Shown here: positions 2,955-18,946 of the stretch, piece by piece
Position numbering within the stretch: position 1 is the stretch's first letter
Layout of the letters: each line of letters begins with the position of its first letter
Assembly: GCF_017874375.1 (NCBI RefSeq)
Contig: NZ_JAGGLK010000002.1
Location: 62,001-126,000 of the forward strand
Origin: Methanohalophilus levihalophilus
Lineage (GTDB): Archaea; Halobacteriota; Methanosarcinia; Methanosarcinales; Methanosarcinaceae
Length of the DNA: 64,000 nt
Direction: 5' to 3'
The notes under the pieces: generated by a model
What the model saw: only the letters and a program-made list of their open reading frames with translations
What the model was told of the DNA's origin: nothing
Databases searched by the model: none
Position numbers and translations under genes: made by a program

Positions 2955-3452
2955 TCAAAGACCTCTGAGTTCGTAAACCTTCTTGATAACATCTGCCTTG
3001 CAAATGATACCAACAAGATTGCCATCATCAACCACACAAAAGCGATCCATTTTGTGTTTTATCATCAAATCCGCAGCATCACACAGGGATGTATCGGACG
3101 GGACTGTAACCGGGTGGGACACCATTATGCCTCTCGCATCATCGCTGGATGATTTTACCGCCATGAGATGGGTATGATCAAGTCTTGGAGTCCTGTTGAC
3201 AAGCAGGAGCTGCAAAATGAGATTTTGATCCACAACGCCGATAAAGGACCCCTTATCATCAACAACTGGGTACGTGTGAAAATGATAATTATTGAATAAC
3301 TCAAATATATTCTCCACAGATTCCCCTTCGTGGATTGAGACGGGGTCTCTGGTCATGACATCCCGTACAGATACCTGTGAACATGCAACTCGGAATTTTG
3401 CTGATGGATTATCTGGATCCTTAAAGATTTCATCACTCTGCGCCGGGCACAT
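2955..3452 (-). CDS. CBS-domain pair protein
   Basis: A 165-residue soluble protein made almost entirely of two CBS motifs (about 25-80 and 105-162). The motif cores are VRDVMTRDPVSI, HTYPVVDDKGSFIGVV and DRFCVVDDGNLVGIICKADV. CBS pairs (Bateman modules) bind adenine nucleotides and regulate partner proteins. It is first gene of a two-gene unit with the antiporter immediately downstream, which suggests control of that transporter, but this is inferred from adjacency only. Confidence 0.88.
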   Translation of the reverse strand: MCPAQSDEIFKDPDNPSAKFRVACSQVSVRDVMTRDPVSIHEGESVENIFELFNNYHFHTYPVVDDKGSFIGVVDQNLILQLLLVNRTPRLDHTHLMAVKSSSDDARGIMVSHPVTVPSDTSLCDAADLMIKHKMDRFCVVDDGNLVGIICKADVIKKVYELRGL

Positions 3453-13959: not shown

Positions 13960-14448
13960 ATGACCAATGACGTAGATGCTACACAAAGCACTGCTGAAAA
14001 ATACCTTGAAAACAGACTTGAACAATACAGATCATGGTATGATAATAAAGCCGTGAAGATGAAGAGAAGATATCAGTTTACTCAGGCTCTGGCAGCAATT
14101 GGGGCGGTTCTGGTTCCTGTTGTCAACAATATATCTTTCGAAGCATCAATTGGAAACTTAAATCTGGATTATGCAAGAGTGTCTGTAACAGTTATTGGAA
14201 TTCTGGTAGCCCTCGCAATTGCTCTTGAAGGTGTTTTCCACTACAGGGAACAATGGAAAAATTACCGTTCAACAGAGCAATATCTGGAAACACAGAAACA
14301 ACTGTTTGTTCATAGAATTGGGGATTATTCTGATCTTGCTGATACAGATGCTTTCAAGCTTCTGGTGAACCGCATTGAGGGAGCTATCGCGGAAGAGAAT
14401 GCAGTAACTTTGAACATACTGACAAGGGTTGAATCCAATAACGGATAA
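13960..14448 (+). CDS. DUF4231-like small membrane protein
   Basis: A 162-residue protein with an N-terminal amphipathic part (about 10-45), two hydrophobic segments (about 45-65 and 78-98) and a soluble helical C-terminus. The pattern YLENRLEQYRSWYDNKA and EGVFHYREQWKNYRSTEQYL resembles the DUF4231 family, whose function is unknown although some members sit near nucleotide-sensing defence effectors. No partner is visible here. A TATA-like TTAAATAG at 13932-13939 lies about 25 bases before the ATG, which suggests a leaderless message. Confidence 0.75.
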   Translation: MTNDVDATQSTAEKYLENRLEQYRSWYDNKAVKMKRRYQFTQALAAIGAVLVPVVNNISFEASIGNLNLDYARVSVTVIGILVALAIALEGVFHYREQWKNYRSTEQYLETQKQLFVHRIGDYSDLADTDAFKLLVNRIEGAIAEENAVTLNILTRVESNNG

Positions 14449-14707: not shown

Positions 14708-17700
14708 TCACGTCACAACAATGTCCATTCCTTTTGCTTCAGCCCTGACCTCAGGATTATAGTATGAGTAAGCACTGCTTTCCTGCACCATGGCCTTTAC
14801 CGGGAACTTAGCCCTCATCTGCAGGGAGAAATCCATTCTTTCTCCGGGACTCATCTCGTCGATATAGAGCACAACTTTACGACCCGCTATTTCATAACGA
14901 GTAATGGTTCCATCTTCCTTGAGTGCTTCAAGGCTTGAAGATACCGGTGTGAAGCCTGTGGGTACTGCAATATCAACTATCATCATACCGCTGGACTCAA
15001 CAACACCCCGGATTCCCGGAAGCCCGTTGTACTTCAGGCGAACATCAACTGTTACAATATCATCAACTGCCACATCCGTGGAATCGTATTCCACATCCAG
15101 TTCGATTTCCTCATACTCAATTACCTCGGGGAGGATTACATTGAAACGCCTGACAAGCTGGTAATTAACCTCCCCGCTTCCGGTAAGACTCAATTCCAAT
15201 CTTTCCGTTCCTTCAGGAATCTCAATGACATTCACAACATCATAGTTCTCGGAAGTGATCCTTATACTCTTGATTTCCTCCCCATCACCACTGACAGTTA
15301 TGGTGGCATCCACATCCTTGCCAGCTGAAGCTGCTGCAGTCATCAATGCCCTGAAAGCCATCACGGTATCCTGAGTACTGGAAAATCCTCCATTGGAATT
15401 GCGCTGTGCAGCTATCCATTTCAGGGAAGAGCTTGCACGTGGATCATTTACTTCAATGAGTGCAAGAGTGGCGTAAGCTGTTGTTTCAACGTTCTTGCTT
15501 GAAACCGGATATATGCCATATCCCCCATATTCATAGGGTTCCGGAATTACGTCGTCGTATCCCCAGTACATACCATTCTCGTCTTCCTTTGCAAGTTCCA
15601 GAAGCATGTTCCTTGCATCATCTGCCCTCTCACTTCCCAGTTTTTCAAGTGCAAGAGTGCTGATGGCAAGAGCATATGGGTCATCCTGGGAGTCAAGATT
15701 GTCCTCAAGATAAATGCGTGCACCGTCCATTACTTCAGGAGTTGCAAAACCGTATTCATCGAGTGCAAGAGCGATATAGGCTGTCAGTGCGTAGGTCCCG
15801 CTGACTCCACCCATCATATCCTGATGGATTACAAAACCAACAGACTCCCAAGAACCATCTTCTTTCTGGTGTGATCCTATCCAGTCAGCCGTGTCCCTGA
15901 GAACATTCTCATCAATGGTTGTGAGATCCCGTGCCCCGCTAAACTGTGAAAGCACAAAAGCGGAAAGCCAAAGGCTTCCTTCAGGATCACTTTCCCCGAA
16001 TGCAGAGAATGATCCGTCTGTACGCTGGAAAGTCAGTTCCCTCTGGTAACCAGTTGTGATGAAGGTCAGTGCCTTTGCCTGCAACTCGGGATTTTGCTGG
16101 TTGGTTGCCTTGAGATACCTTAATACTTCAACATCCGTGGAGAACAGCATCATATTCTGCTCACCGCATCCGTATGGCATACCAAGCAGGTCATCGACTC
16201 CGCTGATACTCTGGGCCACAATGCTCGGGGTGAAACTCACAAGTACTTTCTCGGAATCCGGGACAATAACTTCCGGAAGTGTGGCATCCAGTTCAACACT
16301 GCCGTTCTTCAGGATACCATTGTTCACAATTTCCCTTGTGGCACCTTCTGCTTCAACAATCACAGTCTTGCGTATTGCATCGGCTTTCTCGGTGGTCTGG
16401 CCGGTCAGTTCGACTTCCTGAACACCAACTTCCGTTGGTCGGATTGTAAAGCTTGCAGATGTCACACTGTTGGCATCCACACTTACCTCAACCACATCCT
16501 CGCCCACAAGTTCAAACCAGTCTGCACCACTCAAGGTCAGTTTCACATCCTGCGGATTGTCAAGATAGTTGTAAACCTGCACCTGAACAGGGAACTCCTC
16601 ACCCCTGATTACAGCATACGGGAGATCAGGATCAATGAAGAAATCCTGGAATACGGTTAATCCGGTCTCGGATATGCCTATACCCTCCGGACTGGAAGAT
16701 ACCGCATGCAATCTCCATGTTGTAATGGAATCGGGCGCGATAAGGTCGAGGTTTGCCTTACCACTATCGTCAGTTATGATATCAGGCATCCAGACCCATG
16801 TCTCGGGGAAGAACTGCCTCACTCTCTGGACTTCTGCGAGTTCTCCGCCTGTACCGTCATCTGCTGCCGAAGGTTCCATTGGTACTTCCATTTCAGCTTC
16901 TTCCTCGACTTCTACTGCATCGAGAGCCATTTCAAAGCCGGCAAATTCCTGGACTTCCCAGACATTTCTCTGGTTCTGGGGAATTTCCAGACTGCCCGAT
17001 GCCAGCACAATCATGCCTGCATCGTCAATAACATCATAAGCTGATTCCTGATAACCCCATGAAGGATGTGCCTCCACCTGGGGTTCCATGAAGCGGATTT
17101 CAAGTTCGTCGAACACCTGTTTCAGGTTGAGCCTGCCTTGACTCAATGCAAAGACAGATTCGTCCACAATGGACACCCCGATCATTGATTTGGTTCCTGC
17201 GTCAAGCTCAACGAGGACATCAGCTCCGGGTTCAACAATCTCCCTGTCAAAGCTTGAAGAAAGGTCCACCTGTGAACTGAATCTCACATCAAAGGGTAGG
17301 CTGTCAGCGGAGACTTCGTTGTTCGGATTTATCATATAGGCAACCACTTTCGCAGAAGGACTCATCTGCGGTGTTATCGGGATGTTTATCTGGGACTCGT
17401 CACTTGTGGCAGAATATACTGTCCTGCCGTTGGCGAAAACATCATAGAACACTGTACCCTTGTTGGTTGAGTAAACCTTGAAGGAAATTGTGTCACCAAC
17501 TTCGGGTACACCATCTGTCACCTGGCTTATGTGCAGGAAACTGGCGCTTGGTGAATAAGCTGCCGTCAGGGAACTGAAGACATCTATGCCTTCTGATTCT
17601 GCACGAAGTTCAAGGCTGGTGGTATCCACGGGGATGTCAAATGTCAGCAATGCAACCCCATTTTCCGTGGCAACGGTTTCCTCCTGAGTTGTTCTCTCAT

Positions 17701-18910
17701 ACCTTTCATCATAGATATCTGCGGAAATCGTCACTTCCTGCTCCAGTGGCTGTCCTCCGGGGTCTTTTGTAACTATGAGAACCTGCAAGGGCATTCCCGG
17801 TTTGATGGAATCGGATTCGGGTATCATCTGCAGTACAACCGGATGCTGTGCAATGGTCAGCAGCTCAGTGGTTTCCTCAACATTACCACCTGTGTCGGTA
17901 ACGGTTACATTGAGCATGACACTGCCCTGTCCGGCGGCACCGAAGGTACCTGCTACGTATTCCACAGGATCGAGTTCGAATTCAACAAATCCGTCTTCAA
18001 GATTGCCTGAGTAGGTGGTGTATTCTTCCCAAACACCCACGTATCTCATGGCTTCTATCTCGACTGTACCCTCAACGTCCTTGCCGAAGAAGTATTCTGC
18101 AGAAACGACTCCCGTAATCGGATCGTCCACAAGGAACCAATTCTTTTCCGTGGATAATTCCAGATCGAACTTTGGGAGAACATATTGCTCCACCCTGATA
18201 TCCACCTCGGACATCGAAGTTCCGGATGTTGCCTTTACCTTCCATGTTCCCAGATTCAGTTCGGAAGCCAGTGGCAGGTCGAAGTATGCAACTCCGTATT
18301 CATTGGTGGTAAGTTCATCCTTGAATATCCTCACGCCTTTTGCATCGGAAATTTCGACCTCTGTGTCCTGAACCACCGGAACAAGGTTGTTGTTCAGGCA
18401 AAGCAGGCGAACGTGTATGGTCTGCCCGGGCTTGTAAATCGGTTTGTCAGTCTCAATGAAAATGGGATTGTTCTGGATTACCTGTATAGTCGTTGTGAAA
18501 CCAGAATCCGCACCAACAGGTGTTGCAGTCAGGGTGTAGCTGCCTTCCTCAATGTCAGGCACATCGAACTTTGCAACAGTGTTTCCTGCATCGGATGTTG
18601 ATGCCTTGACCAGTGGAATAATCTCACCGGCTGCATCGGTCAGTGTGTATTCAAAGCACCTGCTCACCGACTCCTCATCGAGGAAAGCGGACATGGTCAC
18701 AGAGCTTTCCCCGCCTGAGAACATCATTTTTGGAACCAGCAGGAGATATTCATCTTCTGTTGAGTAAGTGCCTCCTTCCTCACAGGAAAGAGCTTCATTT
18801 GCAGGAGGGAAATCACCCTCCCCATCTGGACCGATGCATCCTGCTGCGAAGATGCCTGATAATATTAACAACACAAGGAAAGAACCCTGTACAACCCCTA
18901 TGGATCTCAT
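14708..18910 (-). CDS. Alpha-2-macroglobulin/complement-like thioester lipoprotein
   Basis: A 1400-residue secreted protein. The N-terminus has a lipoprotein signal (hydrophobic stretch, lipobox LSGIFAAGC), so it should be anchored on the outer face of the membrane. Several macroglobulin-type beta domains follow, with typical stretches such as ETDKPIYKPGQTIHVRLL. A variable acidic segment near 640-730 could be a bait region. The thioester motif GCGEQNM has its Cys at about residue 915 (codon 16166-16168). An alpha-toroid domain then contains IHQDMMGG with its His at about 1029, and the end resembles a receptor-binding domain. The GTG at 18919 is an alternative start. It is monocistronic. It probably traps attacking proteases or tags surfaces covalently; the target is unknown. 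Confidence 0.93.
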   Translation of the reverse strand: MRSIGVVQGSFLVLLILSGIFAAGCIGPDGEGDFPPANEALSCEEGGTYSTEDEYLLLVPKMMFSGGESSVTMSAFLDEESVSRCFEYTLTDAAGEIIPLVKASTSDAGNTVAKFDVPDIEEGSYTLTATPVGADSGFTTTIQVIQNNPIFIETDKPIYKPGQTIHVRLLCLNNNLVPVVQDTEVEISDAKGVRIFKDELTTNEYGVAYFDLPLASELNLGTWKVKATSGTSMSEVDIRVEQYVLPKFDLELSTEKNWFLVDDPITGVVSAEYFFGKDVEGTVEIEAMRYVGVWEEYTTYSGNLEDGFVEFELDPVEYVAGTFGAAGQGSVMLNVTVTDTGGNVEETTELLTIAQHPVVLQMIPESDSIKPGMPLQVLIVTKDPGGQPLEQEVTISADIYDERYERTTQEETVATENGVALLTFDIPVDTTSLELRAESEGIDVFSSLTAAYSPSASFLHISQVTDGVPEVGDTISFKVYSTNKGTVFYDVFANGRTVYSATSDESQINIPITPQMSPSAKVVAYMINPNNEVSADSLPFDVRFSSQVDLSSSFDREIVEPGADVLVELDAGTKSMIGVSIVDESVFALSQGRLNLKQVFDELEIRFMEPQVEAHPSWGYQESAYDVIDDAGMIVLASGSLEIPQNQRNVWEVQEFAGFEMALDAVEVEEEAEMEVPMEPSAADDGTGGELAEVQRVRQFFPETWVWMPDIITDDSGKANLDLIAPDSITTWRLHAVSSSPEGIGISETGLTVFQDFFIDPDLPYAVIRGEEFPVQVQVYNYLDNPQDVKLTLSGADWFELVGEDVVEVSVDANSVTSASFTIRPTEVGVQEVELTGQTTEKADAIRKTVIVEAEGATREIVNNGILKNGSVELDATLPEVIVPDSEKVLVSFTPSIVAQSISGVDDLLGMPYGCGEQNMMLFSTDVEVLRYLKATNQQNPELQAKALTFITTGYQRELTFQRTDGSFSAFGESDPEGSLWLSAFVLSQFSGARDLTTIDENVLRDTADWIGSHQKEDGSWESVGFVIHQDMMGGVSGTYALTAYIALALDEYGFATPEVMDGARIYLEDNLDSQDDPYALAISTLALEKLGSERADDARNMLLELAKEDENGMYWGYDDVIPEPYEYGGYGIYPVSSKNVETTAYATLALIEVNDPRASSSLKWIAAQRNSNGGFSSTQDTVMAFRALMTAAASAGKDVDATITVSGDGEEIKSIRITSENYDVVNVIEIPEGTERLELSLTGSGEVNYQLVRRFNVILPEVIEYEEIELDVEYDSTDVAVDDIVTVDVRLKYNGLPGIRGVVESSGMMIVDIAVPTGFTPVSSSLEALKEDGTITRYEIAGRKVVLYIDEMSPGERMDFSLQMRAKFPVKAMVQESSAYSYYNPEVRAEAKGMDIVVT

Positions 18911-18946
18911 TTTTAACACTACCCGATTGATTTGATTTTTGAATAA

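Follow-up and report, generated by a model that had tools for sequence, protein, structure and literature searches.

The stretch of DNA analyzed here (the window) comprises 64,000 nucleotides of the methane-producing archaeon Methanohalophilus levihalophilus (contig NZ_JAGGLK010000002.1, positions 62,001 to 126,000 of the forward strand). It carries a gene for an animal-type macroglobulin lipoprotein that is the sole gene with a thioester domain (TED) in the source genome. The open reading frame (ORF) begins with GTG; an alternative ATG at 18910 (codon 4) would give 1400 amino acids, and is a plausible true start because the orthologues begin at the same place. The gene and its features are as follows, with residues counted from the GTG:

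14708..18919, minus strand: macroglobulin lipoprotein gene, animal-type (CD109/A2M-like); ORF of 1403 amino acids from GTG
18836..18847, minus strand: lipobox AAGC with Cys28, lipoprotein anchor; from the sequence
17591..18463, minus strand: MG2-MG3-MG4 macroglobulin domains, residues 153-443; Pfam, above cut-off
17144..17530, minus strand: A2M_BRD bait-region domain, residues 464-592; Pfam E 1.3e-24
16829..17029, minus strand: bait-like variable segment, Glu-rich, residues 631-697; low conservation and low model confidence (predicted local distance difference test, pLDDT)
16796..16819, minus strand: R701..F704-PETW plug motif, immediately following the bait segment; R/F invariance and equivalence to A2ML1
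16532..16801, minus strand: A2M (MG7-region) domain, residues 707-796; Pfam E 6.6e-28
15341..16222, minus strand: TED, residues 900-1193; Pfam TED_complement E 1.7e-75 and model match to CD109
16151..16171, minus strand: thioester motif GCGEQNM, residues 917-923, with the thioester pair Cys918-Gln921
15824..15826, minus strand: catalytic-type His1032; invariant column, also His in CD109, A2ML1 and C3
14738..14998, minus strand: A2M_recep (receptor-binding/MG8) domain, residues 1308-1394; Pfam E 1.9e-17

All seven Pfam domains scored above cut-off and lie in the animal order (MG2, MG3, MG4, A2M_BRD, A2M, TED_complement, A2M_recep). The Pfam scan found none of the extra domains that mark ECAM-type proteins (bMG5, bMG6 and bMG10) and, at E up to 10, neither an anaphylatoxin nor a C345C/NTR domain. 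At the place of the lipobox, [A/S]GC was present in every Methanosarcinaceae orthologue checked. Elsewhere, one related family has a lipobox and another a transmembrane-like N-terminus, and the N-termini of bacterial relatives are signal-peptide-like. Few disulphides are possible in the window protein because it has only five cysteines (residues 28, 46, 88, 174 and 918).

The preliminary description, made from the sequence alone, had reported a GCGEQNM motif with a histidine 114 residues after the thioester cysteine. Both were confirmed, with coordinates and spacing exact to the base: the Cys918 codon occupies 16166-16168, and His1032 lies within IHQDMMGG exactly 114 residues further on. The description's placing of this histidine at about residue 1029 is consistent with numbering from the ATG at codon 4, and its view of the domain as an animal-type TED with a catalytic His is upheld by the TED_complement match and by column invariance. 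The C, G, E, Q and N of the motif and the His are invariant in 26/26 aligned relatives. The alignment has His in 27/27 prokaryotic rows of the clade that includes the window protein (clade A, defined below) and in 20/23 rows of a more distant bacterial clade (clade B); among animals the residue is His in CD109, A2ML1 and C3, Asn in human A2M, Asp in C4A and Met in a frog protein. Cys and His of the window protein align with their places in C3. In the animal proteins, the His attacks the exposed thioester to form an acyl-imidazole that is reactive with hydroxyls and amines alike, and this route, together with a plug mechanism, is known for A2ML1, C3 and C4B (PMC9156758). The simplest reading of these columns takes His-assisted chemistry as the ancestral state, with losses in A2M and C4A. 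The His was rejected as a signature of complement, as it is also carried by CD109, A2ML1 and most clade-B bacterial proteins. The label ‘complement-like’ was consequently not retained: the best relative is CD109, the His is common to CD109, A2ML1 and C3, and the domains peculiar to complement were not detected. The statement that bacterial forms read CLEQ holds for the ECAM type (GCLEQTA in E. coli YfhM), but not for relatives in Planctomycetota and Hydrogenedentota, which also carry GCGEQNM.

The plug residues R701 and F704 are invariant in 26/26 clade-A sequences, and are equivalent to Arg730 and Phe733 of A2ML1, which hold the native state of that protein (PMC9156758). The segment between the BRD and the plug (631-700) is 38-41% conserved in the Methanosarcinaceae, against a mean of 70%. 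It is among the fastest-evolving parts of the protein and has low pLDDT in the AlphaFold2 model.

Among solved proteins, the best full-length matches (phmmer) were human A2M (392 bits) and CD109 (390 bits), of which only CD109 matched as one colinear stretch (residues 152-1391). Over MG7-TED the scores were 270 bits for CD109, 216 for A2M, 154 for TEP1 and ~140 for C3 and C4; over the same region, archaeal protein and CD109 (274 bits, 36% identity) are about as similar as human A2M and CD109 (271 bits, 37%). The AlphaFold2 model of residues 204-1403 (predicted template modelling score 0.51) had native CD109 as its top Foldseek match (E 8.5e-72). A TED-only model (pLDDT 83) superposed on CD109 (VIA-align Z 37.4, 2.5 Å, 296 residues, 40% identity), TEP1 (Z 36.1) and bovine native C3 (Z 35.3, 2.0 Å). 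By score, L139 (G170:C136) is the archaeal gene closest to animals, with 291 bits to CD109; at ~3136-3156 it has one in-frame TAG between a 1044-amino-acid main ORF and the C-terminal part.

Orthologues were present in all Methanococcoides-like (79-83% identity) and all Methanolobus-like (66-69%) genomes found, in Methanomethylovorans, in two more families of the order, in one metagenome-assembled genome labelled ANME-2 and, sparsely, in two other lineages of the same phylum; the labels Archaeoglobi-like and ANME-like (ANME, anaerobic methanotrophic archaea), used below for archaeal relatives, are tentative and rest partly on gene content. Planctomycetota and Hydrogenedentota contain bacterial relatives at 43-49%, which together with the archaeal orthologues make up clade A. 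Clade B is a second bacterial clade, further out (33-38%), with the motif FEQTSS. In one Sedimentisphaerales locus (L163, 1-10247), an ECAM-type macroglobulin, a PbpC-like transglycosylase-transpeptidase and a clade-A macroglobulin adjoin; the ECAM-type protein there carries bMG domains that are absent from the window protein.

The macroglobulin gene adjoins mutS/mutL in the window, in Methanococcoides and in Methanolobus. Identity to Methanococcoides is 82% for the macroglobulin versus 72% for MutS, and to Methanolobus 68% versus 71%. Seven other genomes of the window's genus are without the macroglobulin gene, and the six of these scanned with a TED family model have no TED gene of any kind. 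The window copy may therefore be a re-acquisition, or a replacement, at the ancestral site, with a Methanococcoides-like genome as donor. A conserved operon partner was sought and rejected: none recurs across families, beyond synteny on the mutS side and, in some genomes, a DUF4231/SLATT neighbour. In the window the latter is a two-transmembrane protein (13960-14448, plus strand) convergent with the macroglobulin gene; L165 has a homologue ~80% identical beside its macroglobulin gene, and L158 has a shorter match near mutS. Mobile or viral carriage was also rejected, there being no viral-contig relative, no phage DNA match and only distant plasmid matches (<26% identity).

The relationship to animal proteins was examined in a tree of MG7 and TED (448 columns, LG+C20, rooted on clade B) with A2M, A2ML1, frog A2M, CD109, C3 and C4A as the animal members; its archaeal sampling is confined to one phylum. 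The animals formed one clade (support 99/93), with the archaeal sequences L069/L070 as its sister (97/89) and L068 added at 100/100; the next branches outward were Methanosarcinales (96/90), then the clade-A bacteria. The window protein is not an orthologue of CD109 alone, as CD109 falls inside the single animal clade (100/100 when C3, C4 and frog A2M are removed). A constraint holding the 16 archaea together without the animals was rejected (approximately unbiased (AU) test, p 0.0006; the hypothesis was named after the tree had been seen). Holding the clade-A prokaryotes together, with the animals outside, was not rejected with all animals included (AU p 0.08); without C3, C4 and frog A2M, this constraint gave AU p 0.04 and animals joined L068-L070 at 99/95. 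The animal-archaeal join was kept after dropping L069/L070 or L068, and also when CD109 alone, or C3 and C4 alone, represented the animals (Shimodaira-Hasegawa-like approximate likelihood ratio test, 93-99). A tree of the N-terminal half, which is independent of the TED, agreed weakly (90/64), with very long animal branches. We regard the animal-archaeal affinity as solid on these alignments; they do not decide whether animals nest within prokaryotic clade A, nor in which direction transfer ran.

Several accounts of the protein's origin were weighed. An ordinary ECAM-type macroglobulin acquired from bacteria, with CGEQ and His arising by convergence, would fit the judgement of PMC8416519, in which Methanomicrobia members including WP_015053894.1 were put near bacterial alpha-2-macroglobulins as likely bacterial acquisitions, and close relatives are indeed found among bacteria of the Planctomycetota and Hydrogenedentota. 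However, a tree rooted on eight ECAM-type proteins split these from clades A and B and the animals with support 100 (clade A with animals, 95; animals with three archaea, 96), so that the window protein does not fall among the CLEQ-type proteins. ECAM proteins, such as E. coli YfhM, have neither FPETW nor a His 95-140 residues past the Cys, and carry bMG domains; the Methanosarcinales gene phylogeny, moreover, tracks the family codes. On tree, motif and domain evidence, ECAM origin with convergence was rejected and is held to be extremely improbable. Recent archaeal capture of an animal CD109-like gene, or animal contamination, would account for the high CD109 similarity over MG7-TED, but complete archaeal genomes carry the gene at a conserved mutS locus, and the diversity among the prokaryotic sequences runs deeper than a single animal branch and extends over three families of one order. 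The L070 copy is free of introns and lies among archaeal genes (by sequence, prenyl-diphosphate synthase, THUMP-type methyltransferase, and IlvD-, FolE2/MptA- and PurE-like ORFs). Contamination was rejected on synteny and gene neighbours, and this account as a whole is very unlikely. It is tentatively suggested, as a possibility short of an even chance, that an early animal acquired a prokaryotic CD109-like macroglobulin, one close to the Archaeoglobi-like and ANME-like archaeal proteins, and that all of the animal complement/A2M/CD109 family derives from it. If so, both the ester chemistry assisted by His and the plug-and-bait trigger would predate animals as prokaryotic inventions.

The function that appears somewhat favoured is that of a membrane-anchored CD109-type macroglobulin which, in sediment communities, would act at the cell surface as a protease trap and tagger. 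At rest, the Cys918-Gln921 thioester would be buried. Cleavage of the bait segment (631-697) by an outside protease would let the Arg/Phe plug exit its channel, the protein would rearrange and the TED would swing out. His1032 could then attack the thioester to give an acyl-imidazole, with the freed Cys thiolate aiding acyl transfer to a nearby hydroxyl or amine, and the protease, or whatever surface bears it, would end up covalently tethered to the archaeal envelope. Sugars or tyrosines on foreign surfaces had been suggested as targets in the preliminary description; the conservation of the plug and the variability of the bait segment appear to be at least an equal pointer to a protease-triggered trap. 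A complement-style opsonin or adhesin, whose thioester would couple it to glycans on neighbouring cells or on surfaces and so serve aggregation or marking, with no protease trapped, has in its favour that relatives occur in ANME-like archaea belonging to the same order. ANME lineages live in consortia. The invariant His likewise favours esters with hydroxyls (PMC9156758). Against such a role stand the Pfam scan, negative for both ANA and C345C domains, the plug and bait, which indicate proteolytic triggering, and the lipobox, which tethers the protein to its own cell; it is considered unlikely.

Several points weigh against the protease trap. Across the relatives there is no consistent linkage to a protease gene or a partner gene, the long model is of moderate quality (pLDDT 74) with low confidence in the thioester loop, and a signalling or adhesion role, as in parts of CD109 biology, is possible. 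MG4 (386-455) matches the bait segment in variability, and the signal region is variable too; variability by itself is therefore no proof of a bait.

An observation on clade B concerns the same reactive centre. Sixteen planctomycetal genes of this clade (L087-L092, L094-L096, L099-L101, L103, L104, L106 and L150) carry an in-frame TGA at precisely the codon of the thioester Cys (PYG-TGA-FEQTSS), where other clade-B genes have Cys. SelB scored above cut-off in 14/16 TGA genomes versus 1/14 Cys-only genomes (p 2e-5), and the 60 nt downstream of the TGA have a mean fold of -20.1 kcal/mol versus -12.0 in the Cys genes (p 2e-4). The position of the TGA, SelB and the downstream hairpin therefore predict that these macroglobulins probably contain selenocysteine, which, if real, would be a sister-clade selenoester version of the thioester centre. 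Macroglobulins are not mentioned in the main texts of a 2026 review of prokaryotic selenoproteomes and a 2025 predictor paper.

The existence of this kind of protein is already known: PMC8416519 (2021) reported that 24 archaeal genomes encode TED proteins with CxEQ, among them WP_015053894.1 from Methanolobus psychrophilus. In the genome G294 the single TED gene is orthologous to that of the window, and WP_015053894.1 is probably a direct orthologue of the window protein. The main text of PMC8416519 reports neither the His, nor CD109 affinity, nor an animal branch, and no earlier account of the CD109 affinity, the invariant His and plug or the animal-archaeal branch was found in the literature examined. 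On the origin of animal thioester defence proteins, PMC9156758 describes a CD109-like animal ancestor that arose after the sponge split and found no fungal relatives, while PMC13069473 cites the opposite hypothesis, the usual explanation of bacterial macroglobulins, in which bacteria acquired them from animals. Both ideas become testable with a prokaryotic clade that has the whole animal-type machinery and is the nearest to animals in trees, and its disulphide-poor archaeal proteins are material for studying thioester chemistry.

Among known systems, ECAM (YfhM) and other type I bacterial macroglobulins share the superfamily fold and are also lipoproteins with a thioester, but differ in their CLEQ motif, bMG5/6/10 domains and PbpC partner. 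Complement C3/C4B and insect TEP1 have the same thioester and TED fold, and C3 has its His in the same IHQ[DE]M.GG context; in contrast, the window protein has no detected anaphylatoxin or C345C domain, no convertase cascade was seen, and C3/C4 score lower than CD109 (~140 vs ~270 bits). Human A2M and A2ML1 share the bait-region architecture and plug residues, and A2ML1 the His, which in A2M is replaced by Asn. A2M is a soluble tetramer. The anchor of CD109 is a C-terminal glycosylphosphatidylinositol, whereas the archaeal protein has an N-terminal lipid anchor and few cysteines; human CD109 nonetheless has the same domain order, CGEQNM motif, catalytic His (VIHSELQGG) and single membrane-anchored chain, and is the best match to the window protein both in full-length fold and in the TED.
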